Positions 1,877-61,651 of a stretch of DNA of 64,000 bases are shown one piece after another; position 1 is the stretch's first letter, and every line of letters begins with the position of its first letter. Source of the DNA: Prevotella sp. HUN102 (GTDB taxonomy: Bacteria; Bacteroidota; Bacteroidia; Bacteroidales; Bacteroidaceae); assembly GCF_000688375.1 (NCBI RefSeq), contig NZ_JIAF01000004.1, positions 620,001 to 684,000 of the forward strand. Direction: 5' to 3'. The translations under genes were made by a program, and so were the position numbers. The notes under the pieces are model-generated. The model was not told the origin of the DNA. It was given only the letters and a program-made list of their open reading frames with translations, and did not search any database.

Positions 1877-2005
1877 TACCAACGGCTGGTAATCCGATTA
1901 CCACGGCTTGGTAATCCGATTACCACGGCTTGGTAAAACGATTACCATCGGTTGGTAAACAAATTACCATCGGTTGGTAAATGAATTACCATCGGTTGGT
2001 AATTT
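1877..2005. repeat. 22-bp tandem array, six units, core TTACCA-N5-TGGTAA
   Basis: The core begins every 22 bp, at 1877, 1899, 1921, 1943, 1965 and 1987. Each unit is an imperfect palindrome (TTACCATCGGTTGGTAA or a variant) plus a short variable linker. It lies in the 542-bp divergent spacer between the DUF3332 gene and mutS. The same core returns at 46921. Apart from the mutS promoter I see nothing else in this spacer except a weak octamer-like tract near 1846-1860. Confidence 0.9.
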
Positions 2006-2113
2006 CATTAACTACGCAGACAACCGTAGTCATTTCCCGAATTTCAGCTTCCATCCATTGTTCCGTCTTTTTGCGGTTCTGTGCGGTACGGATGCTAAAG
2101 TTTATTTAATCAT

Positions 2114-2144
2114 TTGTTGGTTCAGCCTTATTTTCGTATTTTTG
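2114..2144 (+). promoter_or_regulatory. Bacteroidetes-type promoter for mutS
   Basis: TATTTTTG at 2137-2144 matches the TAnnTTTG -7 consensus, and a TTG at 2114-2116 lies 20 bp upstream. Transcription would begin near 2150. That leaves too short a leader for the ATG at 2158 and favours the ATG at 2191. Confidence 0.6.
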
Positions 2145-2190
2145 CACTTCCAGTATAATGAAAATAAAGCAAGGAAAGGATACCGAATAT

Positions 2191-4854
2191 ATGGCAACGA
2201 ACGACAAGGGACTCACACCGATGATGCGACAGTTTTTCTCTATGAAGGCAAAACATCCCGACGCACTGATGCTGTTCCGATGCGGCGACTTCTACGAGAC
2301 CTACTGCGACGATGCCATCGAGGCGTCGAAGATTCTCGGCATCACGCTCACGCGCCGCAACAACGGTGCATCTTCGGGCGACGAGATGGCAGGTTTCCCG
2401 CATCACGCCCTCGACACGTTCCTTCCGAAGCTGATACGTGCCGGAAAGCGCGTGGCCATCTGCGACCAACTGGAAGACCCTAAGAAGAAACGCGAGGAGA
2501 TAAAGGGAAAGAAAGGACTGAGCGCGGAGGACAAGATGGTAAAGCGGGGCATTACGGAACTCGTAACGCCGGGTGTTGCAATGGGCGACAACGTGCTGAA
2601 CTACAAGGAAAACAACTTCCTTGCGGCCGTGCATTTCGGCAAGGGTTCCTGTGGTGTGAGCTTCCTCGACATATCCACCGGCGAGTTCCTGACGGGCGAA
2701 GGCACCTTCGACTACGTGGAAAAGCTCATCGGAAACTTCTCTCCGAAGGAAGTGCTCTACGACCGTGCAAGGAAGAACGACTTTGAAAAGCAGTTCGGAA
2801 CACGCCTCTGTACGTTTGAAATGGACGACTGGGTGTTCACGGACACGACTGCCCGGCAGAAGCTCCTCAAGCATTTCGGCACGCAGAACCTCAAGGGTTT
2901 CGGCGTGGACCATCTCAACAACGGCATCGTTGCAGCCGGAGCAATTATGCAGTATCTCGAGATTACGCAGCACACCAACATCAACCACATCACTTCGCTG
3001 GCACGGATAGAGGAGGAGAAATACGTCCGCCTGGACAGGTTCACTATCCGTTCGCTCGAACTCGTCGCACCGATGCAGGAAGACGGCTCGTCTCTGCTGA
3101 GCGTAATCGACCGTACCGTAACGCCGATGGGTGGGCGTATGCTGCGCCGGTGGCTCATCTTCCCGCTCAAGGAAGTGAAGCCCATCAACGAGCGACTGAA
3201 CATTGTGGACTATTATTTCCGTGAACCCGACTTCCGGAAGTGTCTGGACGACCAGTTCCACCGCATCGGCGACTTGGAACGAATCATATCCAAGGTGGCC
3301 GTAGGGCGTGTTTCGCCGCGCGAGGTTGTGCAGTTGAAGAATGCCCTGATGGCGATAAAGCCGATGAAGACAGCCTGTATGTCGGCAGACAACGATGCCT
3401 TGAAGCGCATCGGCGAGCAGTTGAACCTCTGCGAATCCATCCGTGAGCGCATTGAGAAGGAAATAACGGCCGACCCTCCGCAGTTACTCAACAAGGGTGG
3501 AGTGATAGCCGCGGGCTATAATGCCGAACTCGACGACCTCCGTTCCATACGCGACAACGGCAAGCAATACCTGCTTGAGATTCAGGAGAAGGAAGCCGAG
3601 CAGACGGGTATCAATTCCCTGAAGATTGGTTTCAACAATGTTTTCGGCTATTATCTCGAAGTGCGCAACACGTTCAAGGACCGTGTGCCCGAAGACTGGA
3701 TAAGAAAGCAGACGCTGGCACAGGCCGAACGCTACATAACGCCCGAACTGAAGGAATACGAAGCAAAGATTCTCGGAGCCGACGAGAAGATAATCCTGCT
3801 CGAGACAAAGCTGTTTACCGAGCTTATTCAGGATATGCAGGAGTATATTCCGCAGATACAGATCAACGCAAACCTCATTGCCCATCTGGACTGTCTGCAC
3901 GCTTTCGCCGCGGCGGCAGAGGAAAACAGATACGTCCGTCCGGTGGTCGATGACTCAAATATTATCGACATCAGGCAAGGCCGCCATCCTGTCATCGAAA
4001 TGCAGTTGCCGCTGGGCGAGCAATACGTGCCGAACGATGTGCTTCTGGACAACGAGCATCAGCAGATTATGATGATTACGGGACCCAATATGGCTGGTAA
4101 ATCGGCACTTCTGCGCCAGACTGCGCTGATAGTGCTGCTTGCACAGGTGGGATGTTTCGTGCCGGCAGACGGTGCCAGAGTGGGGTTGGTGGATAAAATC
4201 TTCACGCGAGTGGGTGCTTCCGACAATATTTCGCTCGGCGAATCCACCTTTATGGTAGAGATGACGGAGGCTTCCAACATCCTGAACAACGTAACGCCGC
4301 GCTCGCTTGTGCTCTTCGACGAACTCGGACGTGGCACAAGCACCTACGACGGTATCAGCATAGCGTGGGCGATTGTGGAGTATCTGCACGAGCATCCAAA
4401 GGCGGCTGCACGTACATTGTTTGCCACTCACTACCACGAACTCAATGAAATGGAAAAGAACTTCCGACGCATCAAGAACTTCAACGTGTCGGTAAAGGAG
4501 GTAGACGGCAAGGTTATCTTCCTCCGAAAGCTCGAGCGTGGTGGAAGCGAGCATTCGTTCGGTATCCACGTGGCAGACATTGCCGGTATGCCGCGCTCTA
4601 TCGTGAAACGTGCCAATGTGGTTTTGAAGCAGTTGGAGGCCGACAATTCAAAAGTCGGAGGCAAGGCTATGCCGTCGGCAGAGCAGCTTGAGCAGAGCAG
4701 GGAAGGGGTTCAGCTCAGTTTCTTCCAGTTGGACGACCCGGTTCTGATGCAGATCCGTGATGAGATTCTCGGTCTCGACATCAATAACCTCACGCCGATG
4801 GAGGCACTCAACAAGCTCAATGACATTAAGAAAATAGTGAGTCCGAACGCATAG
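2191..4854 (+). CDS. mutS: DNA mismatch repair protein MutS
   Basis: MutS recognises mismatches and small loops and recruits MutL in methyl-independent or methyl-directed repair. The N-terminal mismatch-binding motif is visible as GDFYETY, with the intercalating Phe and the Glu. The C-terminal ABC-type ATPase has Walker [14 protein letters not shown] and Walker [16 protein letters not shown]. The length of 887 residues is normal. An in-frame ATG at 2158 would add 11 residues ([11 protein letters not shown]). I prefer 2191 because homologues start just before the [10 protein letters not shown] segment, a purine-rich AAGGAAAGG lies about 12 bases upstream, and the promoter at 2114-2144 sits almost on top of the earlier ATG. 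The gene converges on the DUF2752 gene. Confidence 0.96.
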
Positions 4855-4904
4855 GTAGAAGAAAACGGATTGAGGATGGGGCAAGATACAGGTTAAGCAA
4901 TTTC

Positions 4905-4976
4905 CTTATCCACTTGTTCCCTCGTCTACTTGTTTCCTCGTTCCCTCGTCCTCTTGTCCCCTTGTTTCCTCGTCCC
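4905..4976 (-). repeat. 8-bp periodic array, nine units
   Basis: Nine plus-strand octamers in perfect phase (CTTATCCA, CTTGTTCC, CTCGTCTA and so on), which read NRRACRAG on the minus strand. It lies 12 bases beyond the stop of the leftward DUF2752 gene, on that gene's sense strand. No paired purine array is seen on the mutS side. Confidence 0.85.
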
Positions 4977-4987
4977 CTTTCCCCTTT

Positions 4988-5359
4988 TTATATTTTCAAT
5001 AGATTGCGGACAAAGAACCAGATAAAAAAAGTGATTACGTAAAACCATACGACATATCGGTTTTGCGCAATCCTTACAAGATTGGTCTTCAGTTTGCCTG
5101 TCGGCAGCAGCCATCCCGCCATTAATAAAAATGCGTATGGCAGACTGTAAGCCAGATAATAATTGTATTGAATGGCTTCCGATGGTCTTCCGTGCAGCAT
5201 TGCGTGCAGAAACCTTTGGATGCCGCAGCTCGGACAGTTGAGTCCCGTGAGAAGTTTGAACGGACATTTAGGAGCCAGTTCATACATCTTTGGGTCAAAG
5301 AAATACAAACCGGCTCCTATCGTAATGACTGCGAGTAGAAAAATCGTCAGTCTTTTCAC
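4988..5359 (-). CDS. DUF2752 family membrane protein
   Basis: A 123-residue protein with an N-terminal membrane helix, then the hallmark CPFKLLTGLNCPSCGIQRFL and two more hydrophobic helices. The two cysteine pairs and the GxxCPSCGxxR block define DUF2752, whose function is unknown. It follows the CD225 gene by only four bases, and the two families often travel together in Bacteroidetes (general knowledge). The pair is therefore probably one transcription unit and perhaps a membrane complex. The cysteine motif could bind metal or take part in thiol chemistry, but nothing here shows which. Confidence 0.85.
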   Translation of the reverse strand: MKRLTIFLLAVITIGAGLYFFDPKMYELAPKCPFKLLTGLNCPSCGIQRFLHAMLHGRPSEAIQYNYYLAYSLPYAFLLMAGWLLPTGKLKTNLVRIAQNRYVVWFYVITFFIWFFVRNLLKI

Positions 5360-5363
5360 TTGT

Positions 5364-5690
5364 TTAGCCTAACATATAGCTACCCAGACCAAGAACAAAC
5401 ATCAAGATAAAGTAGAGAGCTCCAACTGTCAGACCACCGATAATGCCCCAAGTGCTCCACTTCTTTGCTTCCTGAGCTGCAAGGAGAGCAGCTTCCTTCT
5501 GGCCGGAATAATAGAGCGATTTCACGCTGCTTGCCTTTACGATGGCAACGATACCCAATGGCAGACAGCAGAAGATGGTGGTAAGGATTGCCATAACCAA
5601 ATGGTTTTCAGGTGGTGTGCTTGTATCTGCGTTCATCTGATTGTTGTTGATGTTGTTTAAGTTTTCGTTTTGATTTTGATAATTGTCCAT
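5364..5690 (-). CDS. CD225/dispanin family membrane protein
   Basis: This 108-residue protein opens with a polar, Asn/Gln-rich tail of about 28 residues (many NN pairs). Two hydrophobic segments follow: VMAILTTIFCCLPLGIVAIV and the C-terminal IIGGLTVGALYFILMFVLGL. Between them is KASSVKSLYYSGQKEAALLAAQEAKKWS. This two-helix layout with CCLP followed by G-IVAIV and a basic loop is the CD225/dispanin fold, related to interferon-induced transmembrane proteins. The bacterial role is unknown. It is the first gene of the pair with DUF2752 and lies downstream of lgt on the same strand, with a 37-bp gap. Confidence 0.85.
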   Translation of the reverse strand: MDNYQNQNENLNNINNNQMNADTSTPPENHLVMAILTTIFCCLPLGIVAIVKASSVKSLYYSGQKEAALLAAQEAKKWSTWGIIGGLTVGALYFILMFVLGLGSYMLG

Positions 5691-5727
5691 AATAAATTTG
5701 TTTTTTGGGTTATATAATTTGTGATAA

Positions 5728-6588
5728 TTACTTTTCTGTGTATTCTTTTCCCTTAGACCTCATAATAGACCACACTCCGAGAGCCACAAAAGGAATGCTA
5801 AGGAGCTGCCCCATATTGAAGAGCATACCGTTTTCAAAGTCCACCTGATCTATCTTGATGTATTCGATGAAGAAGCGGAAAGTGAAAATGAGGGCGAGAC
5901 AAAGCCCGAAATAGAGTCCTGTTCCCACCTTCTTCGGATTCTTTCGGTAAATAAAGAAGATGAAAGCGAAGATGCAGAAGTAGGCTATTGCCTCATAGAG
6001 CTGCCCCGGATGGCGCGGACGGGTGTCTACGTCGTAGAAAATGAATGCCCAAGGCACGTCCGTTACCTTGCCGATAATCTCTGAATTCATCAGGTTTCCG
6101 ATACGAATGAAAGCCGCTGATATGGCAGAGCAGATGCCCATAAAGTCGAGCACCACCCAAGTGTTCATCTTAGACCGCTTGATGTAGAGATAAAGCCCGA
6201 TGAGCAGTCCGATGACTCCTCCGTGAGACGCCAGTCCCTGAAAGCCGACGAACTTCCAACCGCCGCCCGGCAGAAACTTTATCGGAATGAATATCTCGAC
6301 GAAATGCTGGAAGGAATCGAAAAACTCTCCCGGTTCGTAGAAGATGCAGTGTCCCAGTCGTGCGCCGATCAAGGCTCCGAGAAACACATAAAGGAACATA
6401 GGCTCGAACTGTTTGTCGGAATACCTGTGCTTCTTGAAGAGCCATTGCATCAGATAGAAACCCACGGCGAAGCACACAAGCCAGCAGATGCCGTACCATC
6501 GGATGCCGGCAGAACCGAAGCGAATGAGGTATTCGTCGGGTTGCCAAGGAATGTATAGTAGTAAGTTGTTCATAAAAAACTCATTCAT
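5728..6588 (-). CDS. lgt: Prolipoprotein diacylglyceryl transferase
   Basis: Lgt transfers diacylglycerol from phosphatidylglycerol to the lipobox cysteine of prolipoproteins, the first step of lipoprotein maturation. The protein is polytopic. It contains ARLGHCIFYEPGEFF, the SHGGVIGLLIG block, RIGNLMNSEIIGK (the catalytic Arg region) and HPGQLYEA, all classical Lgt signatures. The frame extends upstream to 6759, but that extension is basic, low in complexity and lies across the promoter, so I place the start at the ATG at 6588 (MNEFFMNN). The ATG at 6573 is also possible. Several lipoproteins in this window would be substrates. Confidence 0.95.
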   Translation of the reverse strand: MNEFFMNNLLLYIPWQPDEYLIRFGSAGIRWYGICWLVCFAVGFYLMQWLFKKHRYSDKQFEPMFLYVFLGALIGARLGHCIFYEPGEFFDSFQHFVEIFIPIKFLPGGGWKFVGFQGLASHGGVIGLLIGLYLYIKRSKMNTWVVLDFMGICSAISAAFIRIGNLMNSEIIGKVTDVPWAFIFYDVDTRPRHPGQLYEAIAYFCIFAFIFFIYRKNPKKVGTGLYFGLCLALIFTFRFFIEYIKIDQVDFENGMLFNMGQLLSIPFVALGVWSIMRSKGKEYTEK

Positions 6589-6600
6589 TATAGTATTGCG

Positions 6601-6608
6601 CAAAGGTA
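6601..6608 (-). promoter_or_regulatory. Promoter -7 motif for lgt
   Basis: On the minus strand the bases read TACCTTTG, an exact match to TAnnTTTG, 13 bases before the chosen lgt start. It supports starting lgt at 6588 rather than further upstream. Confidence 0.55.
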
Positions 6609-6679
6609 ATATAAAATTGGAATATCTGCAATTCTTACACGGATAAATCTGTTTTATTGACGTTTTGTGAGGATTTTGT

Positions 6680-6709
6680 TTGCTATATGGGGTAAAAAGT
6701 ATAAATTTG
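6680..6709 (+). promoter_or_regulatory. Near-perfect Bacteroidetes promoter
   Basis: TTG at 6680-6682, a spacer of exactly 19 bp, then TAAATTTG at 6702-6709. It would start a transcript near 6717 that reads into the small ORF at 6799. A different frame opening at 6730 is also downstream, so which product is made is uncertain. Confidence 0.6.
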
Positions 6710-6798
6710 CAGACGCAGAATAAGAAGAATGCCTGTGTTCGAGAAGAATCTGAATGCAAGTATTTCTGTTGTATTGGAACTGAAAAGGCGTTTTACAG

Positions 6799-6996: not shown

Positions 6997-7142
6997 TGAT
7001 AAATTGTCTCGCAGAATGTGTCTGAGAAGTACTTGTTCTTGTAAAATTTGATTACCAAAAAACGCATAAAATTTTTCAGCAATCTGGAGAATAAGAGGAC
7101 TAATCTGTGAGATTGAAATTGAATTTTCGGAACATTAAAGAG

Positions 7143-7230
7143 CAATTATGCGAAGGAGGAATTTCATTTTTGCGAAGAATGCAAATCGTTCTTGCGAAGA
7201 TTGCAATGCGAATATGCGAAGAGTGGAAGG
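7143..7230. repeat. 22-bp array, four units, core GCGAAGAATGC
   Basis: Units begin at 7143, 7165, 7187 and 7209, each carrying TGCGAAG at the same offset. It is one of four such four-unit arrays in the window. A 68-residue ORF runs across it but looks fortuitous. Confidence 0.85.
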
Positions 7231-7359
7231 TGGTTTTCGGAAAACAAGAGCCGAAAACAGTTGAAATTGTCGGATTTATTGTCCCTTTCAGGAAGCATTC
7301 AGCGTTATTTTAATGCACAAAAATGCTGATAAAATAGATAAATAATTGAGAAACAGTAT

Positions 7360-9175: not shown

Positions 9176-9255
9176 CTTTCTTTTCGTTTTTTCTTCTACA
9201 AAAATATACTCTTTTGTGGAGATATACAATTATTTGGATGGGAAATTTTAGTAAG

Positions 9256-9335
9256 TGGATAAGGAGACGAGGGAACAAGTGGACAAGGAAACGAAGAGAC
9301 AAGGAAACAAGTGGACAAGGGAACGAGAGGACAAG
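9256..9335 (+). repeat. 8-bp periodic array, ten units
   Basis: Ten octamers in perfect phase (TGGATAAG, GAGACGAG, GGAACAAG and so on). It is antisense to both neighbouring leftward genes and inverted relative to 9406-9479, so the pair could fold into a large stem. Confidence 0.85.
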
Positions 9336-9405
9336 TAAGTTTCCTTGTGCTTGCACGAAAACTAATGGCAGGCTATGAATGAAAGAGCAGAAATGAAGAA
9401 ATCTC

Positions 9406-9479
9406 CTTGTTCTCTTGTCTCCTCGTTCCCTTATTCCGTTTCTTCGTCCCCTCGTTCCCTCGTCCTTTTATTTCCTTTT
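9406..9479 (-). repeat. 8-bp periodic array at the end of the RND pump gene
   Basis: Pyrimidine octamers on the plus strand (CTTGTTCT, CTTGTCTC, CTCGTTCC). It runs into the stop region of the leftward pump gene and is on that gene's sense strand as NRRACRAG. Confidence 0.75.
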
Positions 9480-15375: not shown

Positions 15376-15462
15376 TAGCTTTTATGTCTGCATATATAGC
15401 TTTTATGTCTGCATATATTAGGTTTTATAGTTGTGCATATTAGCTTTTATAGCAGCGTATCT
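15376..15462. repeat. 22-bp tandem array, four units, core TAGCTTTTATG
   Basis: Units begin at 15376, 15397, 15419 and 15441 (one step of 21, the rest 22). They read TAGCTTTTATGTCTGCATAT or a variant. The array lies in the 317-bp spacer upstream of the efflux operon and holds the only structure I see there. Confidence 0.8.
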
Positions 15463-19507: not shown

Positions 19508-19580
19508 GAGACGAAGAGGCAAATAAAGGAGAAAACAAGGGGACAAGGAGACAAGAGGACAAGGAAATTAGTTGGCAAGG
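19508..19580 (+). repeat. 8-bp periodic array after the subtilase terminator
   Basis: Purine octamers such as GGGACAAG, GAGACAAG and AGGACAAG on the sense strand of the subtilase. Phase is partly degraded. It is inverted relative to 19619-19730. Confidence 0.75.
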
Positions 19581-19618
19581 AGATATTCTGCAATACACCT
19601 TCACACAAAGAAACCTAC

Positions 19619-19730
19619 TTGTCCTTTCGTCCCCTTGTTTCCTCGTTCCCTTGCCGCTTGTATCCTTGTCCTCTCGTTCCCTCGTCTCCTCGTTCCCTTG
19701 TTTCCTTACCCCTCGTCCCTTTACTTCCTC
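19619..19730 (-). repeat. 8-bp periodic array, inverted partner
   Basis: About 13 pyrimidine octamers on the plus strand (CTTGTCCT, CTTGTTTC, CTCGTTCC and so on), some units 7 bp. With 19508-19580 it forms a long imperfect inverted repeat. Confidence 0.75.
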
Positions 19731-19836
19731 TTCTGTAAAGAAAAATACCTATTTTTAACATTTCTGAAACATCGATTTTAGAGAAATAAAGAGGCAATTT
19801 CATCGACTTTCATTCCTATTCTGCAACCAGTATTTT

Positions 19837-19924
19837 CATTCTTGCGAAGAATGCTATTCCTTCTTGCGAAGAACGTCTTTCATTTGTGCGAAGAATGCCA
19901 TCCGTTCTTCGCACAAATGCACGC
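19837..19924. repeat. 22-bp array, four units, core GCGAAGAATGC
   Basis: Units start at 19837, 19859, 19881 and 19903. The first three read TGCGAAGAA on the plus strand; the fourth is flipped (TTCTTCGCACA) but keeps the 22-bp phase. Confidence 0.88.
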
Positions 19925-27330: not shown

Positions 27331-27792
27331 CAAATATCACGTAATATCTCGGCAAATATCACGTAATATCTCGGCAAATATCACGTAATATTTCAGCAAA
27401 TATCACGTAATATCTCGGCAAATATCACGTAATATTTCAGCAAATATCACGTAATATTTCAGCAAATATCACGTAATATTTCAGCAAATATCACGTAATA
27501 TTTCAGCAAATATCACGTAATATTTCAGCAAATATCACGTAATATTTCAGCAAATATCACGTAATATTTCAGCAAATATCACGTAATATTTCAGCAAATA
27601 TCACGTAATATTTCAGCAAATATCACGTAATATTTCAGCAAATATCACGTAATATCTCGGCAAATATCACGTAATATCTCGGCAAATATCACGTAATATC
27701 TCAGCAAATATCACGTAATATTTCGTCAAATATCACGTAATATTTCGTCAAATATCACGTAATATTTCGTCAAATATCACGTAATAGAGATA
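27331..27792. repeat. 22-bp tandem array, 21 units, core ATATCACGTAATAT
   Basis: Twenty-one units without a gap or phase change, from 27331 to a partly degenerate last unit at 27771. The first 16 bases (CAAATATCACGTAATA) are almost invariant. Only the last six vary, in blocks: TCTCGG, then mostly TTTCAG, then TCTCGG and TTTCGT. The core is nearly palindromic around ACGT. There are no spacers, so it is not CRISPR. It fills most of the 700-bp gap between rdgB and the PorZ operon. Confidence 0.97.
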
Positions 27793-33205: not shown

Positions 33206-33249
33206 AAAAGGTATATACTTTTCATCCAAAAGGTATATACCTTTTTTCT
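33206..33249. repeat. 22-bp pair with palindromic core AAAAGGTATATACCTTTT
   Basis: Two units, 33206-33227 and 33228-33249, in exact 22-bp register between convergent genes. The T-run on the second unit may let it act as a terminator for either side. Confidence 0.7.
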
Positions 33250-34445: not shown

Positions 34446-34482
34446 TGTATTTGTTTTTTATATACAGTAAATAGGAAATCTC

Positions 34483-34554
34483 CTCGTAAACTGGTATTCT
34501 TGTAAACTCGTTCCCTTGTTTACTTGTCCACTCGTCCACTTGTCCCCTCGTAAA
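34483..34554 (-). repeat. 8-bp periodic array, nine units
   Basis: Nine plus-strand octamers (CTCGTAAA, CTGGTATT, CTTGTAAA, CTCGTTCC and so on) in exact phase. It ends 10 bases before the stop of the leftward U32 gene, on that gene's sense strand. Confidence 0.85.
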
Positions 34555-34564
34555 CTTCCCCTCT

Positions 34565-37981: not shown

Positions 37982-39406
37982 ATTATTGCTGTCCGGTAAA
38001 ACTTAAATAGCCTATAAATCCTTGCGGAATTGCCTTTATATAGGTAATTCCGCATTCTTTTTTGAAATCCAAGCCCCCTAATCAAATAAATCAAGTTCTT
38101 TTGGTGGTGCATTTGCCTTTTCTGCCATTATGATGAGTTCATCATTCTGTGGATTTTCCATAAATGAGATGAAATCAGTGTAATACATCAGTGTGAGCCT
38201 TAGCATGGTTACCAGCTGCGAGAAGGATACGTGTCTTTTTATCATTCTGGAGATAACGGTACAGAGCAGATTGGCAATGAGTACCACCCATGTCTGTATC
38301 TGTATGGCATTTACACTGTCACCATAGAAGAAATGCAGTGGGAAGTTCTGCTTGAGCTGCTTGTAAAGGGACTCAATAGCCCACCTGCGCTTGTAAATCT
38401 CCTCAAGGTCCTTTACATCAAGCTCAAGGTTATTGGTCAACAGGACAACTGACTTATGTGAGTTATTACTCCATAGTTCCACTCGTCTTGCCTGGTGTCT
38501 TATCTCCCCCTTCTCAAAGACAATCTTCTTGTCTGTATGTGTAACCAACCCATCAGGGCTTACATAGGTTACTGAGGACAACTCCGTATAGGTGAGATTC
38601 TTCTTCATCTTGGTCACATAGCATACCCCTTCCTCTGTAAGTCGCTGGAACTGTGCATAATCAACGTATGCCCTGTCCATGGTAAGGGTAGCATCCTTAG
38701 GAAGATGCACTTCTTTAAGTAGATAATGGTCATGCGTGGCGGCAGAGGTAAGCTGTACGACCATGGGAACGCCAACATGGTACTTCATGACCGTATGAAC
38801 CTTCATACCGCCTTTCTTCTTACCACTCTTGGGGTGTCTGCCTACACCCTTGAGTATGTTGTCAAAAAGGATAATCGTAGTTGAATCCATCATATACAGA
38901 AGCTTTTCCCATGTCTTCTGTTCACCTTTAGGGCGGCTGTCCGATAAAAAAGAACCATAACGATCTAAGAGGTACGCATAAACGCTTGCAAAGAACTCTT
39001 GTGGGCGACGCTTGTTGGCATCAGCAAGCGTACTACGACGAACGACATAGTCGATGCCAAGATGATGCAGTTTGTTTACTTCAGCCTTCATGCCTATCTC
39101 CACTTCCCGAAGAGAATCAAAGTGTTTGAGAACACCAAAGAGCATTATGACAAGGTGAGTCCACCCGTCAAGACGCTTTACATAAGCTTCACTTCGGGGT
39201 GTTTCAAGGCTAATTTGCTTGATTTGTTGCTTATCGAGTAATTTTATTACCTGATGATAGACCGGCTGTCCGATAAAATATGTACTTTTGCCCATGTTAT
39301 TGAAGTTTTTTCGCAGAAACAAAAGTAACAAAAAGGGCTGAAATCCAAATACGGATTTTAGCCCTTAACTTTTATATGTGGAAAAGGTTTACCGGACAGC
39401 AATAAT
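37982..39406. mobile_element. Intact IS4-family insertion sequence
   Basis: An element of about 1.42 kb. Its ends are inverted repeats reading ATTATTGCTGTCCGGTAAA on the left, with the complement on the right (GGTTTACCGGACAGCAATAA). It contains one full transposase gene on the minus strand. I could not fix a target-site duplication with certainty because the ends are AT-rich. Confidence 0.85.
38078..39331 (-). CDS. IS4-family transposase
   Basis: A full-length DDE transposase of up to 417 residues. The N-terminal DUF4372-like domain includes LDGWTHLVIMLFGVLKHFDSLREVE. The catalytic residues are Asp in YMMDSTTI, Asp in LTMDRAYVDYAQF and Glu in YKRRWAIESLYKQLKQ, the IS4 Y-x2-R-x3-E-x6-K signature. 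The frame's first ATG at 39331 precedes MGKSTYFIGQ by 12 residues; starting at that second Met (39295) is also plausible and closer to family lengths. No frameshift or stop is seen, so the copy may be active. It occupies nearly the whole element between its inverted repeats. Confidence 0.93.
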   Translation of the reverse strand: MLLLFLRKNFNNMGKSTYFIGQPVYHQVIKLLDKQQIKQISLETPRSEAYVKRLDGWTHLVIMLFGVLKHFDSLREVEIGMKAEVNKLHHLGIDYVVRRSTLADANKRRPQEFFASVYAYLLDRYGSFLSDSRPKGEQKTWEKLLYMMDSTTIILFDNILKGVGRHPKSGKKKGGMKVHTVMKYHVGVPMVVQLTSAATHDHYLLKEVHLPKDATLTMDRAYVDYAQFQRLTEEGVCYVTKMKKNLTYTELSSVTYVSPDGLVTHTDKKIVFEKGEIRHQARRVELWSNNSHKSVVLLTNNLELDVKDLEEIYKRRWAIESLYKQLKQNFPLHFFYGDSVNAIQIQTWVVLIANLLCTVISRMIKRHVSFSQLVTMLRLTLMYYTDFISFMENPQNDELIIMAEKANAPPKELDLFD

Positions 39407-39759
39407 TTTTAAATTAATGTAAGCTATACTATTTATAGTTCATATTTTTTTCTTTTCATAGATTTAGATGATAGTTTCTATTTGCTTGCAAAAGTAATAT
39501 GTTTCTTATTATAGCCTTTCAAAATGACTGTTAAATAATTTCATATTTACGATTTTGTAACTTTTTTGTGAACGAGGTTGAATATTTGTTTTCGTTTTAT
39601 ATTTTTTAATCCCTTAGCTAAATTTTGTTGATGGAATGCTCATAACGGGAGGTTTTGCGCATCGGTGTTTTCCCTCTGGCTGTCTTTTCAAAGAAGATAA
39701 TGTGTTATTGGTTAGTGGTTTGTAAGTAGTTGAAGATCAGTATGTAAATGGTTGATTTT

Positions 39760-39847
39760 CATTTGTGCGAAGAATACAGTCCATTCTTCGCAAAAACGCA
39801 TTGTAATTGTGCGAAGATTGTTTTGCATTCTTCGCACAATTACAAAA
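39760..39847. repeat. 22-bp array, four units of alternating orientation, core GCGAAGAATG
   Basis: Units at 39760, 39782, 39804 and 39826. The first and third read TGTGCGAAGA, the second and fourth read TTCTTCGCA, so orientation alternates while the 22-bp register is kept. The rest of 39407-39940 shows nothing I can name. Confidence 0.88.
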
Positions 39848-39940
39848 CGCATTTCCAACTGCCTGTCTTGAGTTCAGGATAAAGTGGAAAATGGACGAGC
39901 GAAAAGTAAAGAAATTTTTGACGTGGATGCTCTCGTTTAC

Positions 39941-46769: not shown

Positions 46770-46920
46770 TTAATTGGGTTTTAATAGTTGATTATATGGA
46801 TTGCAAAGCCCAATAACGGGCTTTCAGGTGCAAAAGTATATAATGGTTAATGTTTGCACAATAACCATTTATTGGTATTTTCGTGGGAAATGAAAAAGAT
46901 TTTGCTGTTTTAAATAAGAA

Positions 46921-47074
46921 TACCAACCGATGGTAATCATTTTACCATCGGTTGGTAATCGGTTTACCATCGGTTGGTAATTGGTTTACCATCGGTTGGT
47001 AATTGGTTTACCATCGGCTGGTAATCGGTTTACCATCGGTTGGTAATTATTTTACCATCAGTTGGTAATTTTTT
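46921..47074. repeat. 22-bp tandem array, seven units, core TTACCA-N5-TGGTAA
   Basis: The core TACCA begins at 46921, 46943, 46965, 46987, 47009, 47031 and 47053, exactly 22 bp apart. The first unit is inverted (TACCAACCGATGGTAA), the others read TACCATCGGTTGGTAA. It is the same family as 1877-2005. It lies between the start of the LRR gene and the end of the WG-repeat gene. Confidence 0.95.
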
Positions 47075-56418: not shown

Positions 56419-56484
56419 GTTTCATAGCTTTGAGACAACAGTTTCATAATTATGAGACAACTTTCTCAAAGCTATGAAACTAAT
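56419..56484. repeat. 22-bp array, three units, core GTTTCATA-N4-TGAGACAA
   Basis: Units at 56419, 56441 and 56463. The first two are direct; the third is inverted (TTCTCAAAGCTATGAAAC) in the same register, so units one and three form a perfect 17-bp inverted repeat. Confidence 0.8.
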
Positions 56485-56573: not shown

Positions 56574-56662
56574 GGAATGAGGGATGGTAGAGGATGGAAC
56601 GAAGGATTGTAGAGAGTGGAATGAGAGGTGGAGAGAGGACGGAATGAGGGGAAGGGAAACGG
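56574..56662. repeat. Degenerate ~22-bp purine-rich array
   Basis: GGAATGAG or GGAACGAA begins at 56574, 56596, 56618 and 56641 (steps of 22, 22 and 23). It is purine-rich on the plus strand, between mnmG and the regulator gene. Its lack of a palindromic core sets it apart from the other arrays. Confidence 0.6.
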
Positions 56663-56686: not shown

Positions 56687-57775
56687 CTACTGGTTTCTGA
56701 TGTTGAGAATGTAGCCTTTCTTGTAGATAACGTCGATGGAGAGTTTCTCATCCGACTTTAGGGCGCGCCGCAGATGGGTTATCTGAACGTTCAGAGCGAG
56801 GGAATTGGCGTAGGAATCGTCGCCCCACGCAGCAAGAAGAATGTCTTCGCGCGGTACAATCCTGTTGGGCGAATCGCTCAGGAGCTTCAGTATCTCGGCT
56901 TGTCGTGAGGTCAGAATCACGCGTTCCTCCCTATACTGCAATTCGTTGAGTCCGTAACGGAATTCCGTATCGCCTATGCGCAGGCACTCTCCGTCGGCAC
57001 CGGTCTCTTCGGGCTGCTTCATCTCGAATATCATATTCTTCATAAATTCACGACGGATGCCGTCGATGCGCTTCTGGATGATGATGGTTTTAATCTGATA
57101 GAGAGTGCAGATGGTAAGGACGATGAGGAGGAGTGTGCTCGCAATGAGCTGCCACATCATCGACTTTATTACGTTGGAGACAGGAATCGGGATGGAGAAT
57201 GCAATGCCTTCGCCGAAGAGAGGATTGCTCCAGTACGCCACTTTCAGTTTTGTTTCCCATCCGATTTCCGTGCTGAACCGTGGTTCAAGGTTGTTTGCCT
57301 TCATCTTGACGTGCTTGAAATCCTGTATCTTCTGGCTTCCCTTTGCCGTGAGGAGCGAGTCGATTACCTTTGTCTGGAAAGATTTGAAGCTCGCAGCTTT
57401 GTATTTGTTGTAGATTTCGCCGGCAGCCGATGATGTCAGTCCGTTGCAGTTGAAGACCACCTTACCTTTCTCCGGCAGAAGATAAGTGAAGGTAGACGTG
57501 GAGGTGGGCTTGCGCTTCGAGCTGTAATCGTAGGATATGGTAGTGGTTACGTTCAGCGTGTCCTTTATCTTTTGTTCTCCGAGGTATTCGTAAACTTCCT
57601 TTATGCGCATTTCCTCTTCCGTTGCAAGACCTTTGGCGCAGATGTTCTTCAGTTCGTCTGCCATCGCATTGCTCGTGTAGAGATACTGGTTGTAGAGCCA
57701 GTAGGCTTGTCCTGCGAGCGTCAGGAGAATAGTGGCGATGGAAAGGAGGAATACCAGCTTTATTCGTTTGTCCAT
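56687..57775 (-). CDS. Membrane-tethered winged-helix regulator with sensor but no kinase
   Basis: A 362-residue protein with an odd domain order. Helix 1 (residues 6-25, KLVFLLSIATILLTLAGQAY) and helix 2 (207-227) enclose a periplasmic domain of about 180 residues, exactly as in a Bacteroidetes histidine kinase. After helix 2 comes REFMKNMIFEMKQPEE (242-257), which mirrors the kinase H-box (xFxxNMTHELKTP) but has Phe250 where the phosphorylated His should be. No ATPase domain follows. Instead residues 265-360 are an OmpR/PhoB-type winged helix (RQAEILKLLSDSPNRIVPRE and LNVQITHLRRALKSDEKL, ending YKKGYIL). It would carry signals from the periplasm directly to DNA. It is divergent from the GLPGLI gene with a -7 motif at 57799. 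Confidence 0.85.
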   Translation of the reverse strand: MDKRIKLVFLLSIATILLTLAGQAYWLYNQYLYTSNAMADELKNICAKGLATEEEMRIKEVYEYLGEQKIKDTLNVTTTISYDYSSKRKPTSTSTFTYLLPEKGKVVFNCNGLTSSAAGEIYNKYKAASFKSFQTKVIDSLLTAKGSQKIQDFKHVKMKANNLEPRFSTEIGWETKLKVAYWSNPLFGEGIAFSIPIPVSNVIKSMMWQLIASTLLLIVLTICTLYQIKTIIIQKRIDGIRREFMKNMIFEMKQPEETGADGECLRIGDTEFRYGLNELQYREERVILTSRQAEILKLLSDSPNRIVPREDILLAAWGDDSYANSLALNVQITHLRRALKSDEKLSIDVIYKKGYILNIRNQ

Positions 57776-57798
57776 AGGTATATCTTTGGTTTACAATA

Positions 57799-57806
57799 CA
57801 AAGATA
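57799..57806 (-). promoter_or_regulatory. Promoter -7 motif for the tethered regulator
   Basis: TATCTTTG on the minus strand, 23 bases before the start. The divergent gene has an identical octamer on the other strand at 57915. Confidence 0.55.
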
Positions 57807-57914
57807 ATAAAATCTCCCGACGTGGTGCGTTGAATAATAAATGAATAATAAAAATCGCGACGGAAAAGAATATTTCTGTAATAAAAATCAGCGTTTTCAT
57901 CGGGAATATACGGC

Positions 57915-57922
57915 TATCTTTG
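57915..57922 (+). promoter_or_regulatory. Promoter -7 motif for the GLPGLI gene
   Basis: TATCTTTG matches TAnnTTTG, 30 bases before the ATG at 57953. Confidence 0.55.
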
Positions 57923-57952
57923 CCAGAGAAAACAATTTAATGACAAAGAGCT

Positions 57953-58807
57953 ATGAAAAGAAATCTATTTGTATGGGTGCTTGCAATGACGGCAATGTTT
58001 GCAGAGGCACAGGGTGTAACTCTCATTACGGACGACGACAGGAAGCAGGGCGAGTTCATTGACCGTGTGAAGTACGAGATAGTCTATGATATGAACTCGG
58101 TTGTCAATCCGAATGCCGAGGCACGGGCTTCGTTCAACGAGCAGATGCTGCTGCAGATCGGCGATAAGTGCTCGGCCTTTTACAGCTATGCGAGCTATCA
58201 GGTGGACTCGCTGATAGCCGAACAGATGCGGAAAGGCGAAGACATCAATATTAATACCAGTTCGCAAGTGAGCTGGAAGGTGTATAGGAACTATCCCGCA
58301 ATGGGCAGATCTGCCTATCTGGACAGGATAGCAAACGACCGTTACGTCGTGGAGGAGGAACTGGACGTGCCCCGATGGGAGATTGTTGCCGACAGCACGA
58401 GGCAGATACTCGGATATACGGCACACTTGGCCACGGCAAAGTATCGCGGACGGGTGTGGAACGCGTGGTATGCAGCCGACATTCCGCTCGACAACGGCCC
58501 GTGGAAGCTCCACGGATTGCCCGGATTGATACTCTCTGCCTATGATTCCAACCGCGAATTTACGTTCAATGCCGTGGGAATCAGGAATGTCAGGGAGGAA
58601 AAGATGATGGAGTACAAGGGCAGGGACTATGAGCCGATAGCACGGAAGTCGCTCAACAAGATATACAAACGTTACTATTTCGATGCCATCGGCTATACGC
58701 TGATGAGCTTTCCCTCCTCGTCGAATCGGACGATAACTATCAAGGACGAAAACGGAAACGAACTGAAACACTCTGCTCCACAGGACTACAACCTGATAGA
58801 ATGGTAG
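57953..58807 (+). CDS. GLPGLI family exported protein
   Basis: A 284-residue exported protein with a signal peptide (to about residue 20, ending FAEAQ). The family motif GLPGLI is at 188-193 in WKLHGLPGLILSAYDSNREF. Before it are the usual segments RWEIVADSTRQILGYTAHLATAKYRGRVWNAWYA and IPLDNGPW. The family is restricted largely to Bacteroidetes and often sits next to outer-membrane receptors; its function is unknown. Here it is followed by a beta-barrel receptor gene and is divergent from the tethered regulator. Confidence 0.92.
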   Translation: MKRNLFVWVLAMTAMFAEAQGVTLITDDDRKQGEFIDRVKYEIVYDMNSVVNPNAEARASFNEQMLLQIGDKCSAFYSYASYQVDSLIAEQMRKGEDININTSSQVSWKVYRNYPAMGRSAYLDRIANDRYVVEEELDVPRWEIVADSTRQILGYTAHLATAKYRGRVWNAWYAADIPLDNGPWKLHGLPGLILSAYDSNREFTFNAVGIRNVREEKMMEYKGRDYEPIARKSLNKIYKRYYFDAIGYTLMSFPSSSNRTITIKDENGNELKHSAPQDYNLIEW

Positions 58808-58841
58808 GTGGGGGGAGAGCTTTCGCAGAGCATTCCCCCGA

Positions 58842-58995
58842 AAGGTTTAAGCCTGATGCAGAAAAGGCTTTAAACCTGTTCGGAAAAAGTTCGCCAGCTT
58901 TTTATCAAAAGCTCTTAATCTTTTCCAAGAAAGCTCTTAATCTTTTTCAAGAAAGCTCCTAAGCTTTTTCAAGAAAGCTCTTAAGCTTTTCGGAA
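58842..58995. repeat. 22-bp array, about seven units, core AAAGCTCTTAATCTTTTTC
   Basis: The last four units (58908, 58930, 58952, 58974) are close copies of AAAGCTCTTAATCTTTTTC. Three more diverged units (58842, 58864, 58886) keep the register. The first two, AGGTTTAAGCC and GGCTTTAAACC, can pair as a hairpin. It fills the gap between the GLPGLI gene and the receptor. Confidence 0.8.
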
Positions 58996-59026
58996 AAAGG
59001 AATTTATCCTATAAAATCATTGCTCT

Positions 59027-61498
59027 ATGAAACGATACATTATGCTGCTGCTTTCCTTTTGGACGTGCCTTGCAGTTCAGGCACAGACTTCCGTTTACGG
59101 AACGGTGGAGGACGGTACCGGAAAATCCGTTCCGGGTGCATCGGTAACGCTTCTCCGAGCCGGCAAGCCGCTGAAGTTTACGAAGACAGACGCCCGGGGA
59201 GCCTTCCGAATGAATATCGGGGAATTGCAAAAGGCCGATTCCTTGCAGATAGGCTGTATAGGATTTGCCAAGACGGTCGTGAAGCCGGCAGAGAAGGGAG
59301 CAACGAACGTGAAACTGGCGGCAAAGCCTTTCGAGCTGAACGAGGTAACGGTGCGTGGCGGAAGAATATTCGGAAGACAGGACACCACGGTTTACGACCT
59401 GACGCGGTTCGCCAACGAGCGCGACAATTCGCTGAAGGACGTGCTGAAGAAACTGCCCGGCGTAGAAGTGGCGTCGAACGGCGAGCTGACTGTGAACGGA
59501 AAATCGCTCAGCCGATTCACCGTGGAAGGATTGGACTTGACAGGCGGTCGATACAATCAGCTTGAGGAAAACATCAAGGCAAAGGATGTGAAGAATGCCG
59601 AAATCATCCATCACGATCAACCGGTAAAGGCTCTGGAGGGAAAGGTGCTCACGGACAACGTGGCGATGAACATCGTGCTGAAGGACGACGCACGCGACAA
59701 ACTGCTGCCCACCGTCAGGCCGCATCTGCTCATCGGCAAGCCGGTCAGCGTGGGGGGTGCTGCCAATATCCTGCAAATAGGCAAGAATAGGCAATGGATG
59801 TACACCCTTGCCTACGACCGGACGGGGAAAGACCTGATGCAGGAAACGCACGCACTGGCGCATTATGGCGGAGGATTGCCCGCGGCAGGGCTGCCGTCGT
59901 GGCACGCCGCTCCCTCCGTCTATGCCCCGATAGCTGCCGAACGGCTCCGGTTCAACACCTCACAACGCTACGGAGCAAGCAGAATACAGAAGCTGCCGAA
60001 CGACGGCGAACTGCGCTTCACGGCAAACTATCTGCGGACGGTGGAACGGCAGACAACAAAGAACGAATCAGTCTACGACCTCGGAGGTTCAACTCCCGTA
60101 ATAACCACTCAGAATCAGCACCTCACCTTGCTGCACGACGATTTCTCAGCCGAGCTTGAGCACAAGATAAACACGGCTTCAACGTATGGGAAAGACCTGC
60201 TGAGCATCTCGGCAAGGCAGACCGACGCCCTGTCCGACCTTGGCGACACGCTCGCCCAACGCATCAGAACTCCCGAGCTGAACATCTCCGGGAGCCTGTA
60301 CCGCCTTTACACGCTCGGCAAGGGACAGCTCTCCGTTCAGTCCGTAATGGATTACCACCATTCCGTTTCCGACCTTTATATTAACAACTTCAGGACACGT
60401 CTGCGCACAAACCTGTGGCATTCTGCCGTGTCCGTGGGATGGTTGCGCAAGCGGTTGTATCTTACGAGGCGATATTCCGGTGGGTTCGACCTCCGAAACC
60501 TGAACCTGTCGGGCAGCAGCGTGAAGCTCTCCGCCCATCTTTCCCCTTATTTCCAGTACGAACGGGGGAAGTTTCAGGCATCGCTCACGCCCCGTTTGGT
60601 GTGGGAACGATTCGTCCGCCAACGCTGTTCGTTCCTCCTTCCGCAGCCTTCCCTCTATCTGAAATGGAAGTCCGGACGGAGAAGCGAGTGGACGCTGGCA
60701 GCCAATTACGCCGAAGGGACAGGACAGATGGGCGAGTTTATCCTTGACAGCTATCGGCAGAACTACCGTACTTATTATACGGGCGACGGACTGATTCGCC
60801 GGACGCGCAACCTCTTTTCCACCTTGGAGTATGTCTACAAGCGTCCCGTGAGCGAGTTCTTCTTCAATGCCGGTGCGACGGTGGGGCGCAGTTGGCAGAA
60901 CATTATGATCGATTTACGGATTGCCGACGGCAGGTATTACCTTTCGCAGAGGGAGTGCAATGCGGAAAGCGACTATTGGCAGGCCGAGGCTTCGGTGTCG
61001 AAAGGACTTTCCGACCTGCACCTCAAGGCTCGTCTTAACGGCAGTTTCACGTATGGTAAAGGGCAGCAGATGTCCGACGGCAATCTGCTGCAATACACTT
61101 CGCGCCTCTGCAATCTGATGCCCAACATAGAGTTTGCCCCCACTTGTGGAGCACTCAGCTATGAAGGCCGTTTCAGTTGGAGCAGTTCATCTGTAATGGA
61201 AACGCTTTTCGGATGGGAACAGAGCCTTTCGCTCACTTCCACTTTCGGTCCGATAGACCTCACTTGCTCTATGACGCATCATCGCAACGAGCTGCAACAG
61301 GGCAACGTGCTCAGCATCTTGCTTGCCGATGCCAAAGCCGTGTGGCGGATGAAGAAGCTCCGTCTCTCCCTCAATCTCTCCAACCTGTTCGACAAGAAGG
61401 AATACATCGTAAGGCAGAACACCGGAATAAGCATCTCTACGGACTGTTATACATTGCGGGGATGCGAACTGCTGTTGGCGTTGCAATATTCTTTATAG
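59027..61498 (+). CDS. Outer-membrane beta-barrel receptor with carboxypeptidase-regulatory-like domain
   Basis: An 823-residue outer-membrane protein. A signal peptide (to about residue 19, AVQAQ) is followed by a carboxypeptidase-regulatory-like domain (TSVYGTVEDGTGKSVPGASV and LKFTKTDARGAFRMNI, residues 20-105). A plug-like domain comes next (DNSLKDVLKKLPGVEVASNG, KNAEIIHHDQPVKALEGKVL, residues about 125-215), then a long beta-barrel with many aromatic-ended strands. There is no obvious TonB box. It resembles TonB-dependent-type receptors paired with GLPGLI proteins. It is probably co-regulated with the GLPGLI gene, although a 220-bp repeat-filled gap separates them. The substrate is unknown. 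Confidence 0.88.
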   Translation: MKRYIMLLLSFWTCLAVQAQTSVYGTVEDGTGKSVPGASVTLLRAGKPLKFTKTDARGAFRMNIGELQKADSLQIGCIGFAKTVVKPAEKGATNVKLAAKPFELNEVTVRGGRIFGRQDTTVYDLTRFANERDNSLKDVLKKLPGVEVASNGELTVNGKSLSRFTVEGLDLTGGRYNQLEENIKAKDVKNAEIIHHDQPVKALEGKVLTDNVAMNIVLKDDARDKLLPTVRPHLLIGKPVSVGGAANILQIGKNRQWMYTLAYDRTGKDLMQETHALAHYGGGLPAAGLPSWHAAPSVYAPIAAERLRFNTSQRYGASRIQKLPNDGELRFTANYLRTVERQTTKNESVYDLGGSTPVITTQNQHLTLLHDDFSAELEHKINTASTYGKDLLSISARQTDALSDLGDTLAQRIRTPELNISGSLYRLYTLGKGQLSVQSVMDYHHSVSDLYINNFRTRLRTNLWHSAVSVGWLRKRLYLTRRYSGGFDLRNLNLSGSSVKLSAHLSPYFQYERGKFQASLTPRLVWERFVRQRCSFLLPQPSLYLKWKSGRRSEWTLAANYAEGTGQMGEFILDSYRQNYRTYYTGDGLIRRTRNLFSTLEYVYKRPVSEFFFNAGATVGRSWQNIMIDLRIADGRYYLSQRECNAESDYWQAEASVSKGLSDLHLKARLNGSFTYGKGQQMSDGNLLQYTSRLCNLMPNIEFAPTCGALSYEGRFSWSSSSVMETLFGWEQSLSLTSTFGPIDLTCSMTHHRNELQQGNVLSILLADAKAVWRMKKLRLSLNLSNLFDKKEYIVRQNTGISISTDCYTLRGCELLLALQYSL

Positions 61499-61563
61499 CC
61501 TTTTGGGCTTAATTTCCTTACCTTTTTAAGTGTTTGATAATCAATGGGTAAAAGATGAGTTTC

Positions 61564-61651
61564 CATTCTTGCGAAGATTGCGTTCCATTTTTGCGAAGAA
61601 TGCAGCGCAAATGACCGAAGATTGCAGCGCATTCTTCGCAAGATTGGAAAA
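61564..61651. repeat. 22-bp array, four units, core GCGAAGAATGC
   Basis: Units at 61564, 61586, 61608 and 61630. The first two are direct, the third is degenerate (GACCGAAGATTGC) and the fourth is flipped (TTCTTCGCAAG). It lies in a 665-bp non-coding gap whose only other recognisable feature is the promoter at 61999. Confidence 0.88.

Follow-up and report, generated by a model that had tools for sequence, protein, structure and literature searches.

Introduction

Plasmid iterons of the 22-bp type are sites of about 22 bp that lie two turns apart in short arrays, and eukaryotic satellite and centromere DNA combines a constant monomer length with species-private sequence. BvgA is a response regulator of the NarL/FixJ type. 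Excerpts of a study of Bordetella promoters describe arrays of BvgA dimers bound head to head with their centers 22 bp apart, one monomer per helical turn and all on one face, and report dimers at sites lacking strong-binding features as well (PMC7250471). REP, BIME, and REPIN sequences are characterized, in extracts of two papers, as dispersed extragenic palindromes, often in inverted pairs and in many copies per genome (PMC3116915, PMC3733652). The BrickBuilt element of Porphyromonas gingivalis is, in the sections of its description drawn on here, an intergenic minisatellite with leader and tail, found at 19 loci and carrying 1 to 22.8 tandem copies per element of a 23-nt repeat of one sequence family; the same sections mention an unrelated 41-nt repeat element and an earlier note of 22-, 23-, and 41-nt repeats in strain W83, given there without exact locations (PMC4596501). 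Among the top matches in openly licensed literature, none describes phased 22-bp arrays from Prevotella.

The window analyzed here, 64,000 nucleotides of Prevotella sp. HUN102, contains repeats with a 22-bp step at twelve positions (table 1). One of its families, F3, shares the half-site geometry of BvgA at the sequence level, with dyads every 22 bp and half-sites every 11 bp (53 of 53 matches). Unlike the BvgA arrays, which are promoters, the present arrays sit between genes of every relative orientation, comprise several sequence families, and, by extrapolation, amount to tens to hundreds per genome. The dominant family, F1, resembles REP and REPIN sequences in forming inverted palindrome pairs in extragenic DNA (28 inverted versus 10 direct pairs among neighboring cores at step 22), but a strict 22-bp phase, a modal number of four units, and several families in the same phase set the arrays apart, and the REP/REPIN partner RAYT (Y1_Tnp) is absent from the HUN102 genome. 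By description they also differ from BrickBuilt, the period being 22 rather than 23 and F1 having an end motif but alternating units. Judged on the repeats alone, they lack the long repeats and unique spacers of CRISPR loci, as F3 linkers are 5 bp and units contiguous. They differ from plasmid iterons in their many dispersed copies and from satellite and centromere DNA, to which the likeness is an analogy only, in being dispersed and short.

Results and Discussion

Period 22 in the Genome and the Genus

Tandem arrays were called with TRF (score ≥50 for the period histogram, ≥30 for the window arrays) in 40 stretches of 20 kb (24% of the genome) and the window, together 864 kb. Period 22 was the commonest, with 45 of 118 arrays, followed by periods 16 (11 arrays), 21 (10), and 24 (9), and the shuffled first 464 kb returned a single array, of period 15. 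A lag count independent of TRF stood out at lags 22 (20 runs) and 44 (26 runs), with at most eight runs at each remaining lag from 8 to 60 and none in a shuffled copy. Thirteen of 14 other sampled genomes of the genus have 22-bp arrays of their own, and period 22 makes up 43 of their 79 arrays of period 15–60; in an order-level control of 11 genomes from other families of the order, it makes up one of eight. The 22-bp pattern is therefore confirmed as real and as reaching beyond the window. The preliminary description had named a genome-wide period histogram, in this and related genomes, as the test of a chance origin, and this histogram refutes the reading as ordinary minisatellites that happen to share a period. 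We give that reading practically no credence: periods 16, 21, and 24 are also present, but 22 dominates the genus samples, is scarce in the order-level control, and dominates the lag counts together with its double.

As the preliminary description proposed, the arrays are intergenic. According to a simple purpose-made gene caller, none of 88 period-22 TRF arrays in the genus is coding (84 are intergenic and four lie at stretch edges), compared with 17 of the 66 arrays whose period is not 22. The 84 arrays lie between tandem (53), convergent (18), and divergent (13) genes, or 63, 21, and 15%, near the background of 58, 18, and 24% expected by intergenic length, with no clear preference for gene orientation. 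Terminators were rejected as an explanation because the arrays also occur between divergent genes (13 of 84).

Arrays of the Window

A 22-bp register is visible at all twelve positions, as first described, and TRF calls period 22 at eight of these. The array at 15376 is called with period 21 or 22, and at 7143, 33206, and 39760, where TRF makes no call at the 22-bp period, the 22-bp steps were followed by eye. The sequences had been described as unrelated, which holds to the extent that they fall into about eight groups; the arrays at 7143, 19837, 39760, and 61564, though, form one family (F1), a dispersed element one end of which is conserved, and those at 1877 and 46921 form another (F3). 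The repeat at 56574 had been listed with the others. It is purine-rich and has no dyad, its palindrome score of 2 being the second lowest of 88, and it probably falls outside the class of dyad arrays. No common function is evident among the scanned genes flanking the window arrays. A dedicated protein for each of several families in one genome would be a heavy demand, which weighs against a reading by bound proteins.

Table 1. Repeat features at the twelve array positions (window coordinates).
Feature	Coordinates	Strand	Evidence	Neighboring genes
F3 array, 6 clear units TTACCA-N5-TGGTAA-N5	1875..2002		TRF, eye, F3 pattern search	gene 1097-1648(-); mutS 2158(+)
F1-type block, 4 to 6 in-register units (TGCGAAGAATGC), End A not recognized	7126..7242		eye, F1 core scan, HMM	
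F6 array, some 3.5 copies of TAGCTTTTATGTCTGCATATA at steps of 21-22	15376..15450		TRF, eye	
Four-unit F1 block, no End A recognized	19828..19921		TRF, F1 core scan, HMM	
F2 array, 20.7 units of CAAATATCACGTAATATTTCAG	27331..27786		TRF, eye	Ham1-family gene; glycosyltransferase gene
F7, two units, second unit with 18-bp perfect palindrome AAAAGGTATATACCTTTT	33206..33245		eye	
F1 element, four 22-bp units after End A motif (39721-39739)	39721..39848	+	core scan, alignment, HMM	
F3 array, 7 units	46919..47072		TRF, eye, F3 pattern search	
F4 element, 3 units, inverted outer arms GTTTCATAGCTTTGAGA / TCTCAAAGCTATGAAAC	56419..56480		eye, F4 pattern search	
Purine-rich repeat, steps 22-23, no dyad	56574..56647		TRF, palindrome score	
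F5 array, roughly 7-8 units of AAAGCT-CTTA-AGCTTT, those at the start diverged	58842..58999		TRF	
F1 element, four 22-bp units after End A motif (61525-61543)	61525..61652	+	core scan, alignment, HMM	

The Dispersed Element F1

F1 is the dominant family and is private to the species among the genomes searched: an HMM finds 73 loci in the 864 kb, 59 of them at E below 1e-10, and none in 79 other genomes of the genus (1/80 including HUN102). Its usual form is four 22-bp units preceded, where recognized, by a 19-bp end motif (End A). A looser core scan gave 66 blocks, of which 47 have four units, 31 of these in the order GCGC. When End A was searched from −75 to −15 bp ahead of the first core, it was recognized in 42 of the 66 blocks, starting at −44 bp in 41 of these, and the other 24 blocks (about a third) have no recognized End A. 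Conversely, 51 of 72 matches to its PWM in HUN102 DNA have F1 units downstream. End A was rejected as a genus-wide motif, a single convincing array-linked match (G112, L155) being found outside the HUN102 genome. In a check for terminal inverted repeats, this left end was strong, while the right side was weakly conserved and partly mirrored. Six of the 66 blocks in the loose scan lie in predicted genes, all with two or three cores and no HMM support, and none of the 47 four-unit blocks or the 73 HMM loci is mostly coding.

The spacing of F1 survives the loss of its sequence. Counted in both orientations in the 864 kb, 38 pairs of cores stand at step 22 and one other within 15–30 bp, and when any gap from 2 to 32 was allowed, 41 of 44 TTCGCAA pairs in the whole genome were at step 22 (reversed-pattern control, seven matches). 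Thirty-seven elements, the starting copies of which, and hence of the HMM, were picked in register, align over 128 columns with no gaps at a mean pairwise identity of 0.70 and a nearest-neighbor identity of 0.71–0.82, and the spacer that separates the units from End A has an identity of 0.41 versus 0.28 from composition. Indels are very few at this high divergence: 73 of 81 long matches to a gap-allowing HMM have none, with a mean of 31 substitutions each.

Other Families, Unit Number, and Site Anatomy

With any linker from 0 to 25 bp allowed, the F3 linker is exactly 5 bp in all 53 matches at five loci (control, none), which places half-sites in alternating orientation every 11 bp (both strands, offset 11); F4 pairs are at step 22 in nine of nine cases at six loci (control, one). 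These pattern searches escape the partial circularity of the TRF-based step counts, which arises because arrays were chosen by period, and together with the F1 pairs they strongly support the earlier suggestion that spacing rather than sequence is kept. Arms are better conserved than linkers: across 24 arrays outside F1 that have a strong dyad, the identity between units is 0.69–0.80 at 1–8 bp from the dyad and falls to 0.53 at 9 bp and 0.43 at 10 bp. Palindromicity exceeds the 95% point of shuffles in only 28% of 88 period-22 consensus units. The number of units per locus has a mode of four (31 of 87 loci) and lies between three and five in 72 of 87. At 20.7 units, F2 is unlike a fixed complex and counts against a reading as phased complexes.

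What the Spacing Reflects

With moderate confidence, we interpret the arrays as intergenic DNA elements whose dyads, two helical turns apart, would be bound side by side by dimeric proteins. Each dyad is predicted to accept a helix-turn-helix-like protein as a homodimer, and adjacent dimers, mostly on three to five sites, would be in contact along one helix face; because of this contact, the complex would tolerate another linker sequence but break with another linker length. BvgA, with dimers at 22-bp centers and one monomer per turn on the same face, is a precedent in the excerpts cited (PMC7250471). A coating protein, as the preliminary description envisaged, or one that binds side by side fits the phased dyads best, although no such protein was found. 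F1, extrapolated to 280 copies and with its end motif, would have spread by copying of the whole element of at least 128 bp. Candidate roles may be chromosome organization, insulation between genes, or mobility.

The letters differ from species to species at an unchanged 22-letter spacing, as if proteins lined up on one face of the DNA, and the specificity of each putative binding protein may have drifted together with its arrays. Negatively supercoiled DNA has about 11 bp per turn. Tentatively, and as less likely than side-by-side binding itself, we suggest an undescribed class of bacterial element, “phased dyad quartets,” with a genus-wide fixed architecture (some four dyads at 22-bp steps with half-sites at 11-bp steps, located between genes in either orientation) and letters replaced between species as in satellites, on which fast-evolving dimeric proteins might polymerize in register with negatively supercoiled DNA and organize or insulate the chromosome. 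A helix-phased protein complex is expected to leave conserved spacing and replaced sequence as its signature. If confirmed, this would be a genus-wide DNA-binding system invisible to sequence-motif searches, since every species uses different letters, which suggests scanning genomes by spacing and not by sequence.

A less probable but still serious explanation is that the arrays are selfish, nonautonomous MITE- or REP-like elements with no host function, whose dyads are recombinase or transposase sites and whose spacing persists because poorly phased copies are not mobilized. The abundance of F1 and its conserved end favor such mobility, as do its indifference to gene direction (no clear link; 15, 9, 9, and 6 of 39), its restriction to one genome, as within-species spread predicts, and the dispersal of the three-unit F4 at six loci. 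BrickBuilt, in the sections cited, likewise has its 23-nt minisatellite within a MITE (PMC4596501), and 14 of 24 genomes of the genus have a match, some of them weak, to the Y1 transposase. However, the best pair among the 37 F1 copies is 82% identical, so with no near-identical copies the insertions look old, yet indels are scarce. Nor is there a target-site duplication signal: for lengths 3–10, the 37 elements, whose exact borders are uncertain, gave best counts of 5, 2, 1, 1, 1, 0, 0, and 0, against averages of 5.6, 2.7, 1.55, 1.1, and 0.55 in shuffled pairings for lengths 3, 4, 5, 6, and 8, and a transposon footprint was rejected on this basis. Y1_Tnp (PF01797, RAYT-type) has no match in the HUN102 genome, where the search control was positive in five of 14 named genomes, and a RAYT/REPIN origin was rejected accordingly. 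The ten genomes of the 24 with no match (HUN102, G003, G005, G008, G012, G017, G019, G020, G021, and G023) include two, G003 and G017, that carry 22-bp arrays. F3 and F2 arrays show no common ends by eye.

Replication slippage or another fixed-length copying process, raised in the preliminary description, could produce 22-bp duplications from any palindrome with no selection on spacing, and the nearly identical units of F2 and the two F1 HMM matches (L010 and L111) with one indel each of exactly 22 bp are what it predicts. We nevertheless judge it improbable. Units that occupy one slot in different F1 elements are 0.74 alike, more than like-oriented units within an element (0.68 for slots 1/3, 0.60 for slots 2/4), so the units are not recent local duplicates, and spacing outlives strongly diverged linkers; plain slippage fails on the mostly alternating orientation of F1 neighbors, the modal four units, and the rarity of length changes between highly diverged copies. 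Ladders of RNA hairpins with a role in transcripts, also considered at the outset, are more improbable still. Many units are quasi-palindromic, the outer arms of F1 units 1:2 pair in 232 of 333 cells against a shuffle mean of 209 (0/2000 shuffles; for units 3:4, 183 against 172, 150/2000), and the F1 covariation score is 0.123 against 0.112 shuffled (19/500). Because these arms pair above shuffles and the hairpin register beats slid registers, F1 may form a hairpin in DNA. Against a role in RNA, G-U cells (59) show no preference over A-C cells (53), as in shuffles, the RNAalifold covariation term is negligible (−0.17), and arm changes outside F1 comprise 148 single-sided, 10 compensatory, and 23 double nonpairing cases. 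The arrays have no clear bias toward gene direction, no Rfam family matches the window at gathering thresholds, and separate hairpins need no fixed linker length.

Position across Species

We make no general claim that arrays hold their position across species as one sequence replaces another, because 16 other Ham1 loci of the genus have no period-22 array and the rate at polA is near baseline. The glycosyltransferase gene still adjoins Ham1 in four of these 16 (G003, G004, G006, and G017), across gaps of about 60–250 bp. A 22-bp array lies within 400 bp of the polA 3′ flank at six of 32 loci in the genus, close to the HUN102 baseline of 72 among 431 intergenic gaps of at least 60 bp. The one clear case is the Ham1–glycosyltransferase gap of G447, which holds a 22-bp array (L170:1311-1379) unrelated to the F2 array in the matching gap of the window.

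Arrays in the Window and Their Period

TRF and inspection of the window located all twelve arrays of the preliminary description, each with the 22-bp register described there. Its claim that their sequences are unrelated does not hold for the sequence families F1 and F3, each of which has several arrays, so that there are about eight groups and not twelve (see table).

Positions of the repeat features
Feature	Position	Reference	Remark
F1	7143, 19837, 39760, 61564	window	
F2	27331	window	
F3	1877, 46921	window	
F4	56419	window	
F5	58842	window	
F6	15376	window	
F7	33206	window	
Purine-rich stretch without dyad	56574	window	palindrome score 2
F1 paired W positions	columns 54/64 and 98/108, plus unit 2-3 junction	alignment A1	
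8-bp CTYGTNNN ladder	1047-1089, 4901-4985, 9253-9465, 19535-19707, 34482-34557	window	TRF

The window is C4:620001-684000 of a genome (3.32 Mb, four contigs) taken to be Prevotella-like, since the closest named matches to its PorZ protein come from uncultured Prevotella sp. (57% and 49% identity). This own genome was sampled over 864 kb, made up of the window and 40 stretches of 20 kb, and the constant period noted earlier is borne out by the TRF histogram, in which 22 is over-represented with 45 of 118 separate arrays, the runners-up being 16 (11 arrays), 21 (10) and 24 (9). In a TRF-independent count of lagged self-matches, lag 22 has 20 runs and lag 44 has 26, every other lag from 8 to 60 has at most eight, lag 11 has none, and a shuffled copy of the sample yields none at all.

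In the rest of the genus (14 genomes, 820 kb sampled), 79 arrays have a period of 15-60, and in 43 of them it is 22; 13 of the 14 genomes have at least one such array (none in the 40 kb sampled from G143). Among other genera of the family it was found in g29 (2/4), g28 (1/2) and g37 (1/2) and not in g26 (0/2), g33 (0/1) or g35 (0/5), samples so small that zero counts do not prove absence from a genus; in other families of the order it made up one of eight arrays (11 genomes, 380 kb).

Units of other species have their own sequences, for example TTTGAGTTAACTCAAATCATGA, TTGGCAGCGGCCGCTGCCATCA and ACTTAGGGTACCTAAGTATCAT. Mean palindromicity of the period-22 consensus units is 5.05 versus 3.78 when shuffled (n = 88), with 28% above the 95% point of the shuffles, compared with 3.61 versus 3.43 for periods 21/23 (n = 18) and 3.00 versus 2.80 for period 24 (n = 11), both barely over shuffles, and a partial excess for periods 25-60 (3.89 versus 3.34, n = 23; 17% above the 95% point). 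Many period-22 arrays, not all, are thus clearly dyadic. With arrays extended in register and one edge array left out (n = 87), the modal unit number is four (31 arrays), and 72 have three to five units.

The Dispersed F1 Element

A register-aware scan of the 864 kb found 66 F1 blocks of two or more cores. Of these, 47 have exactly four cores, which alternate in orientation (GCGC) in 31 of the 47. Six blocks lie inside genes predicted by a simple script; these contain two or three cores each, lack HMM support and are probably chance matches. A 19-bp end motif, End A (TGTAAGTNNTTGAAAATCA), was recognised next to 42 of the 66 blocks; within a search range of -75 to -15 relative to the first core, its start lies at -44 for 41 of these blocks and at -43 for the other.

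An alignment of 37 elements that carry both End A and four units, picked in register, spans 128 columns and has no gaps. A gap-allowing HMM built from them gave 162 matches, many loci being counted on both strands, and 81 matches cover at least 100 columns; only 8 of these 81 contain an indel, against a mean of 31 substitutions relative to the consensus. The matches represent 73 distinct loci in the 864 kb (59 with E below 1e-10), none mostly coding, which extrapolates to ∼280 copies per genome. The copies do not look recent, since their mean pairwise identity is 0.70, the best neighbour of each is 0.71-0.82 identical, and the spacer that separates End A from the units has an identity of 0.41 (0.28 expected by composition). 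The F1 sequence model has at least 43 matches in the own genome and none at E 1e-5 among 79 other genomes of the genus, which were searched with stricter filters, 43 candidates per genome and varying genome completeness.

In the F1 linkers, the two W positions 10 bp apart are far more often identical (A..A or T..T) than complementary (at the unit 2-3 junction, identical in 38 of 47 and complementary in 7). This would fit avoidance of perfect inverted repeats or a need for both half-site types, one of each. In G112, an array of four units, unrelated in sequence, is followed by an End-A-like motif on the other strand (TTGATTATCAGTCACTTACA; L155:15709-15841), and at L106:13821-14089 an F2-type array immediately adjoins an F1 remnant that has an End-A-like motif. 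Near an F1 element of the window lies a gene for a DDE transposase (DUF4372 + DDE_Tnp_1; 38078-39295), with no evident tie to the arrays.

Conservation of Spacing

Across the whole genome, 41 of 44 TTCGCAA pairs are spaced at 22 bp with gaps of 2 to 32 permitted (reversed-pattern control, 7). The 22-bp spacing also holds for 9 of 9 F4 pairs, from six loci (control, 1). In F3 the linker is 5 bp in 53 of 53 matches with 0 to 25 permitted (control, 0), these being 26 forward and 27 reverse overlapping matches from five loci. The reverse matches are offset by 11 bp: every 11 bp there is a TTACCA or its complement, and both five-base gaps vary. In 24 non-F1 arrays, chosen for a strong dyad and including several loci of one family, identity falls from 0.80 at a distance of 3 bp from the dyad to 0.43 at 10 bp, the arms being conserved and the linker not. 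Neutral DNA that has diverged so far is expected to contain indels, so length is probably under selection. A 68-bp tandem repeat (∼3 x 22.7) lies 78 bp downstream of polA in G016 (L037:4338-4641).

Possible Function and Origin

A role at the DNA rather than the RNA level is favoured by arm changes, base-pair counts, folding and gene context. The non-F1 arms show 148 one-sided, 10 compensatory and 23 double non-pairing changes (541 cells, 107 variable consensus pairs), with pairing slightly over shuffles (370 versus 356.5; 3/1000 shuffles). When F1 is folded into a pair of hairpins, one from units 1:2 and one from units 3:4, 77.8% of cells pair versus 77.2% shuffled, with a covariation score of 0.123 versus 0.112 (19/500) that is far lower in slid registers. 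In F1, G-U (59) and A-C (53) cells are on par with shuffled columns (63.6 and 58.2) and so give no hint of wobble pairing in RNA; the RNAalifold result is -5.1 kcal/mol, its covariation term being -0.17, and the gene context of arrays is close to background. The outer arms of F1 units 1:2 do covary (232 of 333 cells pair, shuffled mean 209; 0/2000 shuffles), whereas the inner arms pair below shuffles, leaving room for hairpin formation in DNA or for linkage between half-site types.

In the proposed mechanism, dimeric proteins would sit side by side on the dyads. The nearest established geometry found is that of BvgA, described in PMC7250471 as binding, also on weak sites, in dimers arranged head to head whose centres are 22 bp apart, with one monomer to each helical turn and all on one face of the helix; F3 has the same half-site pattern in its sequence. 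The repeat families would have spread through copying, as independent origin of a 128-bp element at dozens of sites is implausible.

Among known repeat classes, REP/REPIN was rejected because the own genome has no RAYT, MITE because no signal of a target duplication was found, and BrickBuilt because its period differs (PMC4596501). Y1 is missing in 10 of 24 genomes of the genus. The BrickBuilt paper mentions earlier-noted 22-, 23- and 41-nt repeats in P. gingivalis W83, exact locations not given, so short repeats of period 22 had already been seen in the wider group; no description of a constant phase across different repeat families was found in the literature searched.

Array Position and a Second Repeat Type

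Same-position conservation of arrays between species is anecdotal, with one supporting case and other rates near baseline. In G447 an unrelated 22-bp array (L170:1311-1379) occupies the same gap between a Ham1 gene and a glycosyltransferase gene as the F2 array of the window. The window also has another kind of repeat, an 8-bp ladder with the pattern CTYGTNNN (TRF periods 8, 16, 24 and 32), which seems to be the source of part of the non-22 arrays; a similar ladder is present in G028 (L081:3397-3449).
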